A DNA stretch of 45,989 nucleotides. Source: Acidobacteriota bacterium. GTDB lineage: Bacteria > Acidobacteriota > Terriglobia > Acidiferrales > UBA7541. The notes under the pieces were generated by a model, which ran no database searches, had not been told where the DNA came from, and saw only the letters and a list, made by a program, of their open reading frames with translations. The stretch covers positions 1 to 45,989 of the forward strand of contig QHYI01000118.1 in assembly GCA_003223245.1 (NCBI GenBank). The letters are read 5' to 3'. Each line of letters starts with the position of its first letter. The stretch's first letter is position 1. The position numbers and the translations under genes were made by a program. Below are positions 9,333 to 13,369 of this stretch, in pieces.

Positions 9333-9989
9333 TCAGAAATGGCTCCACAAGAGAACCTGCTTGGCGAACGCCTCAATCGGCGCATAGACATACTGAAACG
9401 CGAACAGCGCCACTACGAGTCCTAGAAGGCCGTAAGAATTGCCGCGCAGCCAATCCAGGTAGCGCTGCGCGCGTGTCTCGCTCATGAACAGCAGGATCGC
9501 CGTGCTCCCGTCCAGCGGCGTCACCGGCAGCAAATTGAACGTGCCCAGCAAAAGATTCAGCGAGAACGCCGCGCCAATCAGATTTTCCGCAAACGAGCCT
9601 TGATGCAGCCATCCCTGACTCCATCCCAAGCGCAAGAGAATCGCCGCGATGATCATCAACGTGTAGTTCGTCGCCGGGCCCGCCAGCGCCATCCACGCCG
9701 CGCGATGCGGATGGCGCCGCTCCCAATGCGGATCGTAGGGCGCGCTGGCCCAGCCGATGACCGAGTGCGTTAGGAGCAACATCGCAATCGGAATGATCAC
9801 CATGCCCCATGGTTCGCGCTGGATGTGCGGCACGGGATTGAGCGACACCTGCCCGCCGAGGAAAGCGGTCTCGTCGCCGCCAATCTTGGCGACGAGCGCG
9901 TGAGCCGCTTCATGGCACGTGGTAGAAAATAGAAACACCACATACCAGATGAATCCTAGAGCTAGAAGGTCAGGTGAAATATTCGGCAT
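9333..9989 (-). CDS. Site-2-type (M50) membrane metalloprotease
   Basis: 218 residues with five or six hydrophobic segments. The zinc site is visible: HEAAH at residues 26-30 inside the first membrane segment, and NLLPVTPLDGS near residue 152-162 supplying the third ligand Asp. The N-P-V/T-x-x-D-G form and the short length place it with the SpoIVFB/YwhC-like group lacking PDZ domains. Such proteases cut substrates within membranes, often anti-sigma factors. No regulator is adjacent, so the substrate is unknown. The start MPNISPDLLALGF fits the family's short cytoplasmic lead. Confidence 0.92.
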   Translation of the reverse strand: MPNISPDLLALGFIWYVVFLFSTTCHEAAHALVAKIGGDETAFLGGQVSLNPVPHIQREPWGMVIIPIAMLLLTHSVIGWASAPYDPHWERRHPHRAAWMALAGPATNYTLMIIAAILLRLGWSQGWLHQGSFAENLIGAAFSLNLLLGTFNLLPVTPLDGSTAILLFMSETRAQRYLDWLRGNSYGLLGLVVALFAFQYVYAPIEAFAKQVLLWSHF

Positions 9990-10147: not shown

Positions 10148-10339
10148 TTGCAAGCAGACATTCGAGTAGGTCGAGTAGGGCCGCGATGTCGAAAATACCG
10201 GGCAGCCGGCAGCGAGAATCCAGTTTGGTCTCCCGATGGAAAGCCAATCGCGTTTATCCATCTGAACGAGGGCCCAGTCGCAAACCGGCGTTACGGTGCG
10301 TTGCGCATGCCGGAAATAAACGAGCGGATTGCTAAGTGA
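10148..10339 (+). pseudogene. TolB/WD40-like beta-propeller fragment
   Basis: A short plus-strand frame with one clear PD40 repeat signature, NPVWSPDGKPIAFIHLNEG, about residues 24-42 of the open segment. PD40 repeats normally occur in tandem sets of five or more in TolB-like or peptidase proteins. Here only one is left and the rest of the frame shows no homology, so it is a relic. No start or full fold is present. Confidence 0.55.
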
Positions 10340-10342
10340 TGT

Positions 10343-10590
10343 CTCACCCTCCGAAATGGAAACACGCGGAACCTTGAGCGTCGCGGCGCCAGCGGCCAAA
10401 ATCCCTTTACAGGTGCCCGGCGGAACACCGCTGCGGATCGCGCTTGAACAGCGGGTTCGCATCCGCCGGCCCGGTGAAGTTGTCTGCGGCCACCTAGCGG
10501 AGGCGAGCTACGCTTTCGATCAAGCGGTGATTCCGGCCGGCGCCGTGGTGACGACTGCGGCGAAAGGCCAATCGCGCTCCTTGCGTTTCC
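10343..10590 (+). pseudogene. Fragment of a secreted 'VPAGTPLR'-type protein
   Basis: The plus-strand frame contains LQVPGGTPLRIALEQRVRIR, then GEVVCGHLAEASYAFDQAVIPAGAVVT. I recognise this as the N-terminal domain of a conserved acidobacterial exported protein (VPxGTPLRVAL...YAFDxxVIPAG pattern, function unknown). The similarity stops near 10570, just before the convergent kinase-like gene's 3' end (10628), and there is no signal peptide. I infer a truncated gene. The same frame stays open far into the antisense of the kinase gene, but that part has no protein-like features. Confidence 0.5.
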
Positions 10591-10627
10591 TCAGGGTGTG
10601 CCTCGAAGCCGGCGCTACGAAATGCCA

Positions 10628-12412
10628 CTACTGGATGATTTGCTTGGGGAAGGCTTCGACTCCCGCCGGAGAAAACTCGAAGCGAATCAGCCATTCGCTC
10701 GGAGCGCTGTGGCCGCCCACTTCCGGCGAAGTAAACTCCCAGCGACGCACAGCTTTCATCGAGGCATTCGCGAAATACTCGCTGGGTCCGGGGTTCTCGA
10801 ATTCCGCGGAGGCCACATTGCCGGCGGCGTCCACATGCGCGTGCAGGACCACGCGCACTTTGCCGGTAATGGTGGCAAGGGCTTTGTCGGGAACGTCGGG
10901 CAAGATTTGGTCGAGCACTTCGCCCCGCTCAGTGGTTGAACCGGAGCTGGGGGCGGAACCGGTCGCGGAATTCATCGCTGCGTCCTCCGAAGCTTTGGTT
11001 TCGGAACGCAGAGAGGCAGGAGCGGGAGAAGCAGCTGCCGACGGAGAACTTTCTTTTGCGGGTGGTTTCGCGGCGGCGCCCTTCAGCGGATCTCTGGAGG
11101 GGGCGGACGAAATGGGTTTCGAGCTGCTGGGAACTTCTTCGCCGGAAGACTGTGCCTCGGGTCCGGGCGCCACCGCGCGTGCAGCGCTGGTCTTGGTAAC
11201 AGGAGAAGAGGACTCAACTCCTCTGCTAAGAAATTTAGGCAGCATAATGATTGCGGCAACAACCAGCAGCCCGGCAGCCAGAGGTATGACGAAGCTGGGA
11301 AGAACAATATCCTGCTTCGCGCCACCCACTTTCACACGCGCGCGCGAAGGGGTTTTGGGCAGCGGCGGCACCATAGGAGGCGTGACGGGCGGAGCAGCCA
11401 CCGGAGCTTTTTCGAGCGGCGGCGCGATGGGCGCCATGACCGGGGCCGGCGGCGTGTGCGGCCGAGGCATCGGAGCTTTCGTGCCGCGCGGCGCGAAGAG
11501 CGGCCGTTTCGGGGCTGCCTTGGGCGGAGGGGGCGGCGGTGCGAACGGCGGTGCGAACGGCGGTGCTTGCTGCGCTTGCAGCTTTGCTGCAGGAGCCGCG
11601 GGAGCCGGCGACAACGGCACCGACAAAGGAGACACACTTTGCACGGCCGCAGCAGCCGTGCGAGGATTCAGGCTGGCCGCGATTTGATCGATGGTCCAGC
11701 GAAGACGGGGATCGCGTTCGAGCGCGTGGTGCGCGATGTCGCGAAACGGCTGCGAGAGGGAATCCGGCGACGGGCTTCCCGGTTGTCCGCTGGGAATGCG
11801 TTGCGTCAGCACCTCGATGAGCATGACGCCGAGCGACCAGACGTCGCTCGCGGCAGTGAGCGGTTGATTTGCGGATTCCGGCGCGTCGTAGGCGCTGCGT
11901 TTCGCGGTCGACTTACGAATTTCTCCGGCGGCAAAGAGGCGATCGGTAGAAAGCTTGACTTGATCGCTGGTGGCTAAAACGTTGGAAGGCTTCAAATGGG
12001 AATGAACCAGGCCCTGACCGTGCAAGTCGCTCAGCGCATCCAGCACCGGGCCGAGCATGTCACGTGCTTCGGCAGGAGTGAGCGCGCGCTGCGAGAGAAT
12101 TTCGGAGAGATTTTCTTCGGCGTATTCCATGACCACGTAAAGAAGGTCTATGTCCGCCAGACGGCAGCGGCCGCCCTGATACAACTGCAGCAAATTGGGA
12201 TGCGTGAACTTGGAGGCGCGGCGCCAAAGAGAAAGTTGCGCGTCAACCGATACGCCTTCGGGAACCAGCTTGACGACCGCTTTAGACGATTGTGGACCAG
12301 CGAGTTGCGTGAGGAAAACGGCGGATTCGCTGGAGCCCCCCAGGTACTGCTGCAGCGGAAAAGTATTGTTGATTACCTGGCTTTCGTATTGTTTCCAGGA
12401 AAAACTCATCAT
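10628..12412 (-). CDS. Predicted pseudokinase - TM - TonB_C fusion
   Basis: 594 residues. Residues about 15-250 follow a Hanks-type Ser/Thr kinase: VVK with Lys48, hinge VVMEYAEENL, HSHLKPSNVL (136-147), APE (177-179) and DVWSLGVMLIEVL (190-202). Key catalytic residues are missing. The HRD Asp is His139, DFG reads STDR (155-158), the Gly-rich loop is GGSSESAVF, and the alpha-C Glu is not found. A Pro/Ala-rich linker (255-360), one membrane helix (about 369-394), a Ser/Ala/Pro-rich periplasmic linker, and a TonB-type C-terminal domain (about 510-590, GKVRVVLHAHVDAAGNV...ASMKAVRRWEF) follow. Inference: a cytoplasmic non-catalytic or atypical kinase domain senses something and a periplasmic TonB-like domain contacts partners. 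No ExbB/ExbD or TonB receptor is adjacent. Confidence 0.85.
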   Translation of the reverse strand: MMSFSWKQYESQVINNTFPLQQYLGGSSESAVFLTQLAGPQSSKAVVKLVPEGVSVDAQLSLWRRASKFTHPNLLQLYQGGRCRLADIDLLYVVMEYAEENLSEILSQRALTPAEARDMLGPVLDALSDLHGQGLVHSHLKPSNVLATSDQVKLSTDRLFAAGEIRKSTAKRSAYDAPESANQPLTAASDVWSLGVMLIEVLTQRIPSGQPGSPSPDSLSQPFRDIAHHALERDPRLRWTIDQIAASLNPRTAAAAVQSVSPLSVPLSPAPAAPAAKLQAQQAPPFAPPFAPPPPPPKAAPKRPLFAPRGTKAPMPRPHTPPAPVMAPIAPPLEKAPVAAPPVTPPMVPPLPKTPSRARVKVGGAKQDIVLPSFVIPLAAGLLVVAAIIMLPKFLSRGVESSSPVTKTSAARAVAPGPEAQSSGEEVPSSSKPISSAPSRDPLKGAAAKPPAKESSPSAAASPAPASLRSETKASEDAAMNSATGSAPSSGSTTERGEVLDQILPDVPDKALATITGKVRVVLHAHVDAAGNVASAEFENPGPSEYFANASMKAVRRWEFTSPEVGGHSAPSEWLIRFEFSPAGVEAFPKQIIQ

Positions 12413-12679: not shown

Positions 12680-13369
12680 TTACCGAGAACGCAAGCGCGG
12701 CTTACGGCGCTTGCGGGCGGGTTGAAGAAGCCGCTTAGGGCCGCTCACAAAAGGGTTGCCGCGTTCAAAAAAGCGAAGCCGCTTATCGGCGGCGCGGCTG
12801 ATCCCGATGCGCACGGTTTTGCCGATGGGACCCGAGGGATGGTCGATTTCGCCCAGCCAAAGGTTTGTGTCCTCGCACAGATCTACGCCGTCGTGGCGGC
12901 GGTCGATTTGCAGCGCTTGCGCGAGGCGGCCCGGGCCGCGCGTGAGGTCCAGCAGATTCGTGGTTTTGCGGTGGCGCTGCATAATTTCGATGCCTTCGAG
13001 CGGCTCGAGCGCGCGAATCAAAATAGCTCCGGCGGTTTCCGGCCGCTCGCTGACCACGTTGAGCATGAAGTGGTTGCCGTAATTGAAAAAGACATAAACG
13101 TGGCCGGGAGCCAGATACATGGAGCGGATGCGCGGCGTCGGTCCGCGAAAATGATGCGCGGCGGGATCGCCGGGAGGATAAGCTTCGGCCTCCACAATGC
13201 GGCCGCTGACGCGCCCGGACGAAAGTTCGTGCACCACGACTTTGCCGATCAGAAAACGTGATAGCTCGACAGTGTCTTCGGGAAGTTCGGAGCGGCGAAC
13301 GCGGCGGATGGAAATTCCCGAATGTGATTCTTTGAGGGCGGCCGTCGGGGAAGGGAGAAGCGAGGACAT
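12680..13369 (-). CDS. DNA-3-methyladenine glycosylase (AAG/MPG family)
   Basis: 229 residues, the standard bacterial AAG length. Family motifs are LSRFLIGKVVVH, GRIVEAEAYPPGDPAAHHFRG (the Glu of EAEAY is the catalytic base), MYLAPGHVYVFFNYGNHFMLNVV, and DLTRGPGRLAQALQI. It removes alkylated and deaminated purines in base excision repair. The C-terminal codons contain a perfect inverted repeat, CGCAAGCGC (12690-12698)/GCGCTTGCG (12707-12715), which could act as an in-gene terminator but lacks a T-run. The window also encodes the unrelated enzyme Tag (34177-34761). Confidence 0.95.
   Translation of the reverse strand: MSSLLPSPTAALKESHSGISIRRVRRSELPEDTVELSRFLIGKVVVHELSSGRVSGRIVEAEAYPPGDPAAHHFRGPTPRIRSMYLAPGHVYVFFNYGNHFMLNVVSERPETAGAILIRALEPLEGIEIMQRHRKTTNLLDLTRGPGRLAQALQIDRRHDGVDLCEDTNLWLGEIDHPSGPIGKTVRIGISRAADKRLRFFERGNPFVSGPKRLLQPARKRRKPRLRSR

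Follow-up and report, generated by a model that had tools for sequence, protein, structure and literature searches.

The gene described here encodes a membrane protein with a kinase fold that lacks the catalytic Asp before a single membrane helix, and a TonB-type C-terminal domain after it. It lies in a window of 45,989 nucleotides (the whole stretch of DNA that was analyzed) from a soil Acidobacterium, and it belongs to a large family of membrane pseudokinases whose periplasmic domain is exchangeable. The loss of the catalytic Asp and of the DFG motif is family-wide, the replacing residues are conserved, the outer domain is exchanged between TonB_C and SPOR types, and the gene is under purifying selection. 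We lean toward the view that the protein is a receptor-like sensor or scaffold of the cell envelope, a reading that we hold with a little more belief than doubt and that a preliminary description of this DNA had suggested in similar terms.

The layout of the protein is summarized in Table 1. The gene opens with two in-frame ATGs (12412 and 12409) directly after a GAGGTG stretch (12420–12415). The membrane helix is the only hydrophobic segment in the protein, with all windows that start outside residues 355–400 reaching 1.6 or less. We infer the orientation in the membrane, with the C-terminal half periplasmic and the kinase half cytoplasmic. An antisense ORF of 452 aa on the plus strand (10329–11687) runs into the gene and is likely a by-product of GC-rich codons.

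Table 1. Features of the pseudokinase gene, in window positions
Feature	Position	Strand	Details
Whole gene, 594 aa/codons	10628..12412	minus	pseudokinase - linker - membrane helix - linker - TonB_C
Pseudokinase domain, residues ~10-250	11663..12385	minus	Pfam Pkinase, AF2, Foldseek
Lys48, beta3 lysine	12269..12271	minus	kept; family: K 89, R 34, five others, one gap (n=129)
Catalytic loop HSHLKPSN, residues 137-144	11981..12004	minus	His139 replaces catalytic Asp; Asn144 kept
S-T-D-R, residues 155-158	11939..11950	minus	in place of x-D-F-G; Asp157 in 124/129
Pro/Ala/Ser-rich linker before membrane helix, residues 252-365	11318..11659	minus	58% P+A+S, 36 Pro
Single membrane helix, residues 373-391	11240..11296	minus	Kyte-Doolittle peak 2.65
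Ser/Ala/Pro-rich linker after membrane helix, residues 396-500	10913..11227	minus	55% P+A+S
TonB C-terminal domain, residues ~505-594	10631..10900	minus	TIGR01352, Pfam, AF2, VIA

Sequence and structure both identify the N-terminal part as a protein kinase fold. Pfam Pkinase scored 81.3 bits on the window protein (cut-off 31.7), the AF2 model of residues 1–262 (18 sequences) had a pLDDT of 89.6, and Foldseek returned PAK4, PknG, and PknB within the best 50 structures (E 2e-15 to 4e-14), which places PknB among the solved structures nearest to this part. The C-lobe landmarks Pro178-Glu179, Asp190, and Arg238 are present. The HRD catalytic Asp is missing (HSH at 137–139), no catalytic Asp was found by alignment, and the DFG motif is missing under either register of Asp157. 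The alpha-C Glu falls inside a 4-residue gap of the profile alignment; position 57, at the start of the predicted alpha-C, is acidic in 52 of the 69 non-SPOR members (D 35, E 17). The D-F-G motif is certainly lost and the metal-binding Asp at most probably so, and nucleotide binding by the altered site may still be possible, with Lys48, Asn144, and Asp157 all kept. As a kinase fold without the HRD Asp, the window protein is a pseudokinase, defined as a kinase fold that lacks one or more of the beta3 Lys, the HRD Asp, and the DFG Asp (PMC12599244). The preliminary description had named the kinase-fold N-terminus, the kept Lys48, the changes of HRD to HSH and of DFG to STDR, the absent alpha-C Glu, and the Pro-rich linker followed by one membrane helix, and all of these features stand in the 594-residue ORF.

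The position of Asp157 relative to the DFG motif depends on the method of alignment. In all four profile–profile alignments, Thr156 falls opposite the DFG Asp and Asp157 opposite the Phe, with a gap of one residue. Compared with PKA, the beta8 strand predicted by the AF2 model (152–154) agrees with the Phe position. Counted without a gap, the distance from Asn144 to Asp157 is 13 residues in 128 of the 129 family members, and 13 is also the commonest distance from the Asn to the DFG Asp among active kinases (35 of 75). Because of this equal spacing, Asp157 may be the DFG Asp itself. MAFFT alignments were divided, with A5 putting Asp157 on the DFG Asp and A3 not, and an alignment of the 75 active kinases to the family profile placed their Asp on column 156 in 34 cases and on column 157 in 17. 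On this evidence, the Phe position is favored over that of a displaced DFG Asp. The gap-free count nevertheless means that binding of a nucleotide or metal, and even residual activity, may be less excluded than the reading of the motif suggests.

The family was delineated from profile matches, from which 129 members were hand-picked with a spread over genera in mind, leaving many of the class-wide matches aside. The set comprises 89 ORFs (92 above 100 bits, minus two partial duplicates and the active kinase L016) and 40 members from other families of the class; L139, which has HRD and DFG, was excluded beforehand and is in no tree. The profile that set membership includes the catalytic loop and therefore favors look-alikes. 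L016, at 124.5 bits, scores above some SPOR members (lowest 108), so it is the tree rather than the score that separates the family from active kinases: on the careful tree, which has 102 rows, a 100/100 branch separates 80 members of the family from 22 active kinases. This tree omits 13 rows (nine family, four active) that were long branches or near-copies. Matches at E 1e-20 or better occur in 56 of the 95 genomes of the order, two of which (G056 and G086) match in the C-terminal part only; no family kinase was found in the corresponding stretches (L225 and L226). When TonB_C- and SPOR-type members were combined in one model, 150 of the 399 genomes of the class, in 35 of 136 genera, gave matches at E 1e-35, a count of matches of which not every one was inspected individually. 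A narrower model at E 1e-30 gave matches in 26 of the 396 genomes of the phylum; just one of these matches lies outside the class, and it is an ordinary HRD/DFG kinase.

The catalytic Asp is absent in 125 of the 129 members. Position 139 is instead occupied by H (75), R (35), G (4), S (4), Q (3), A (2), E (1), or C (1), the remaining four being D, so that 110 of the 129 members have H or R. D-F-G occurs in none of the 129, the closest being D-V-A in L281, and position 156 is never Asp in this set. Four members have Asp139 (HGD; L106, L109, L113, and L306) and retain S-S-D or S-T-D where DFG is expected. Three of them form one clade (support 99, quick tree), and the fourth is L306; their Asp139 is either a regained base or a relic. 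As controls, 80 kinase loci were kept of 130 confirmed ones, all found by peptide patterns without the catalytic motifs, and 75 of these lie outside the family. These distant kinases have HxD in 75 of 75 cases, followed by D-[FLWY]-[GAS] in 75 of 75, and 74 satisfy a stricter DFG-type pattern (the exception, L017, has DFS). Within the genome of the window protein, three of nine Pkinase matches belong to this family, and the other six all keep HxD and DFG. The changes in the window protein are therefore more than chance or a single mutation, since they run through the family, which removes the concern that this was just one mutated copy.

Some relatives depart from the common layout. At L002 (G000:C22:129314-131040), two tandem paralogues of the pseudokinase lie in the same genome. 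The second runs on into a CxxC segment that resembles a zinc ribbon, followed by a hydrophobic segment and a C-terminal part of unknown type; this third architecture is also found in L199, L200, and L201. In L197, L198, and L204, the protein stops behind the CxxC part. Beside L107, a stretch that matches the C-terminal half (G021:C202:38481-38969) contains a TGA, and the G021 pseudokinase looks cut off from its TonB_C.

The C-terminal domain proved to be a TonB_C domain both by sequence and by fold, in keeping with the TonB_C-like domain named in the preliminary description. NCBIfam TIGR01352 (tonB_Cterm) scored 28.1 bits on the window protein (cut-off 27.1), and Pfam TonB_C (PF03544) scored 22.0 bits on the whole protein and 26.1 on residues 490–594 alone (cut-off 24.6). 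On whole relatives, Pfam TonB_C was above the cut-off in three of four (not L123, 17.2) and again in three of four (not L306, 22.6). The C-termini of 29 of 29 members matched Pfam TonB_C at E 0.01 or better, and when a profile of 29 family C-termini was run against the PDB, it matched solved structures of TonB proteins with a best E of 2.1e-6. The AF2 model of this part, predicted separately from the kinase part (six sequences), was also confident, with a pLDDT of 92.3. In VIA, it matched 9dc4_T with a Z of 11.0 and an rmsd of 2.3 over 86 residues, and all ten top rows belonged to TonB or the homologous FusB, with Z from 11.0 down to 8.0.

By our own profiles, 78 of the 129 C-termini are TonB_C, 36 are SPOR, and 15 are neither; ten of these last form a paralogous clade and five are incomplete or not placed. 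The 40 members from other families of the class all end in TonB_C or SPOR by profile, and 38 of them have a hydrophobic peak of 1.8 or more between the halves (L299 reaches 1.3 and L300 1.5). Pfam SPOR was above its cut-off of 21 in seven of ten tested members (two of four, the others at 20.4 and 20.7, then five of six). In the sixth of the latter, L301, a member of the SPOR group with a strongly diverged kinase part, Pfam found neither kinase nor SPOR at E 0.01. Both types are present in families f4 and f5, and one genome (G686) has one TonB_C copy and one SPOR copy (L287 and L288). SPOR requires three changes on the quick tree, which has all 129 rows, and the starred branches force one of them. 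Separately, the TonB_C and other members as one clade against the SPOR members gave an AU p of 0.40. The site of SPOR members is more worn: 31 of the 36 have Arg48, in 32 of them Lys141 is replaced by E or D, and 10 lack Asn144. SPOR domains recognize denuded peptidoglycan, which is stripped of its peptides and enriched at the division septum (PMC6895207). Because two different families of periplasmic domain occupy the same place, their distribution suggests that contact with the envelope is the need shared by the TonB_C and SPOR types.

Selection was estimated with NG86 in our own script, comparing the window gene with five relatives; dS was high (0.66 or more), which makes the values rough. 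On this basis, dN/dS was 0.10–0.16 in the kinase part, 0.12–0.26 in TonB_C, 0.22–0.38 for residues 251–360, and 0.24–0.40 for the linker after the helix. Lys48, Asn144, Asp157, Pro178-Glu179, Asp190, and Arg238 are invariant in the 32 sequences of alignment A1, the window protein included. At the catalytic position, 19 changes are needed on the careful tree. Because H or R is present in 110 members despite these changes, a basic residue seems to be favored there.

Positions 48 and 157 also tend to change together. A basic residue at 48 (K or R) and Asp157 are both kept in 122 members and both changed in four, with one single change of each kind and one gap. By plain count, with descent ignored, the joint pattern has a Fisher p of 2e-6 (n=128); once descent is counted, it comes down to two to four independent pairs, too few to reach significance (sign test p 0.5 or more). 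Among the four double changes, L280 retains an acid (Glu157) and L290 has an Asp one residue on. In the alignment, the basic residue 48 and Asp157 are both lost in L120, L287, and L290, which are TonB_C copies. The pattern would fit either register of Asp157, and the acid at 57 could be a rival partner for Lys48.

The pseudokinase gene stands alone. In a comparison of 40 stretches, with the target gene picked in 38 (L169 and L189 were missed by the ORF picker), no neighbor cluster was common to most of them, and the largest sharing, by 12 of 40, was among close relatives. The recurring neighbors, named from reading sequences rather than by family search, were DUF1684-like (12 stretches), M50-like (11), glycosylase-like (8), and dnaX-like (8), all in close relatives only; small groups of stretches share other neighbors. 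In the window, an M50-like peptidase gene lies downstream (9333–9989) and a DNA-3-methyladenine-glycosylase-like gene upstream (12680–13369), and both stay near the gene in close relatives only. Since no cluster recurs in most stretches, we propose no partner gene.

From these observations, we infer a ligand, a partner, a mode of signaling, and a role for Asp157 as follows. The periplasmic domain, TonB_C here and SPOR in other lineages, would hold a ligand, either peptidoglycan or a TonB box carried by an outer-membrane protein, and its occupancy or tension would reach the cytoplasmic kinase fold by way of the single helix. The kinase fold would not phosphorylate; it would hold a partner protein, as EssB/YukC is reported to do. 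An Asp157 that occupies the Phe position of DFG may form with Lys48 the pair that the missing alpha-C Glu would otherwise make, and one that is the displaced DFG Asp may still bind a metal.

Several other explanations have to be weighed against a sensor or scaffold. Against that reading count the role of TonB_C elsewhere, which is to serve outer-membrane receptors, the lack of a widely shared neighbor cluster, and the four members with Asp139. A TonB-type energy transducer, whose TonB_C engages the TonB box of a receptor while the pseudokinase gates or couples, would account for the genuine TonB_C fold, which the protein shares with TonB/HasB transducers and which is close to the receptor-bound TonB structures 2gsk and 6i97, and for a genome that contains 34 Plug matches to TonB-dependent receptors (29 over the cut-off) and four ExbD matches. 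The ExbD matches are all on other contigs, however, and even the closest Plug match, which falls below the cut-off, lies ~75 kb away; neither ExbD nor Plug was matched within the window, as the preliminary description had supposed when it saw no receptor or ExbD gene nearby. The membrane helix of TonB is N-terminal and carries a Ser/His motif, whereas here it is mid-chain, preceded by the kinase fold, and free of His in the window copy and in the TonB_C rows checked. With SPOR in place of TonB_C in more than a quarter of the members by profile (36 of 129), we consider a transducer unlikely. That the outer domain only positions the protein, for example at the septum, and that the pseudokinase is a constitutive scaffold with no transmembrane signal, would fit the exchange of TonB_C for SPOR and the recognition of denuded septal glycan by SPOR (PMC6895207), and such an anchor seems to us quite unlikely.

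A cryptically active enzyme, transferring phosphate, AMP, or another group by a rearranged site of Lys48, Asn144, Asp157, and His/Arg139, has precedents in SelO and SidJ (PMC12599244). It draws on the retention of Lys48 in 71 and of Asn144 in 72 of the 78 TonB_C members, on the near constancy of Asp157 and of H or R at 139 across the family, and on the spacing of Asn144 and Asp157, which equals that of 35 of the 75 active kinases; this equal spacing slightly raises the probability of a cryptic enzyme and slightly lowers that of a sensor or scaffold. The general lack of a catalytic Asp, the agreement of all four profile alignments in keeping Asp157 off the DFG Asp, and the E or D at 141 and frequent absence of Asn144 in SPOR members make such an enzyme, in our estimation, improbable. 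The worn activation segments of many SPOR members and the TGA in G021 would also be expected of a decaying kinase that has lost its activity and drifts with no present function. The low dN/dS of the kinase part, the invariant residues in A1, and the matches in 150 genomes of the class run against decay, which is largely refuted by this constraint and which we regard as very improbable. A more elaborate form of the envelope sensor is possible, though we are doubtful of it: TonB_C, originally a domain that energizes receptors, would have come to read the wall or envelope, as a counterpart that SPOR can replace and vice versa. The kinase site would have been rebuilt, with a basic residue for the catalytic base and Asp157 working alongside Lys48, as a nucleotide-gated switch that reports the state of the envelope to the cytoplasm.

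The closest known architecture is that of the PASTA receptor kinases (PknB/PrkC/Stk1), which likewise have an N-terminal kinase fold, one membrane helix, and an outer domain tied to the wall. PASTA domains bind peptidoglycan fragments (PMC5786024, PMC7286690). In contrast to these kinases, the present family has lost the catalytic Asp family-wide and carries TonB_C or SPOR, not PASTA; no PASTA domain was among the four Pfam matches of the window protein at E up to 1, and NF033483 matches it only at residues 66–207. EssB/YukC and Mycobacterium MviN (ActPs3), whose partner is FhaA, also sit in the membrane and have a cytoplasmic pseudokinase. For EssB/YukC, scaffolding and recruitment are reported, and MviN is essential for peptidoglycan synthesis (PMC12599244). 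ActPs3 and EssB differ in being without the beta3 Lys, HRD, and DFG motifs (PMC12599244), in their other outer parts, and in belonging to other phyla. DYD pseudokinases are similar in being membrane-associated, in having no alpha-C Glu, and in an Asp of the DFG region for which a pairing with the beta3 residue has been proposed (PMC12599244), but their beta3 position is Arg and they have a DYD motif, whereas the window copy has Lys48, S-T-D-R, and no catalytic Asp. CP1 and DLHK pseudokinases have no membrane region, unlike the window protein with its helix. The SPOR-type C-terminus of 36 relatives is shared with the cell-division proteins FtsN and RlpA, except that here a pseudokinase precedes the membrane helix.

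A review of bacterial pseudokinase families covers ActPs1-3, GLW, CP1, DYD, and DLHK, and none of the families in the portions of it that we consulted has these motifs or domains (PMC12599244); its main text contains no occurrence of Acidobacteri-, TonB, or SPOR. Among the matches listed for open-licence PMC papers, no title was recognized as concerning a kinase–TonB_C or kinase–SPOR protein, and the word TonB is absent from PMC1262709 and PMC2877116.

Bacterial pseudokinases are largely unexplored by experiment (PMC12599244), and this family comes with natural controls in the exchange of TonB_C and SPOR, the four Asp139 members, and the joint changes at 48 and 157. The SPOR-bearing relatives add the cell wall as a possible ligand to what the preliminary description had envisaged. 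Since TonB_C and SPOR stand in the same place of the same protein, one can ask if TonB C-terminal domains are able to serve the cell wall, and the family as a whole lets one ask whether a dead kinase can carry a signal from the envelope.
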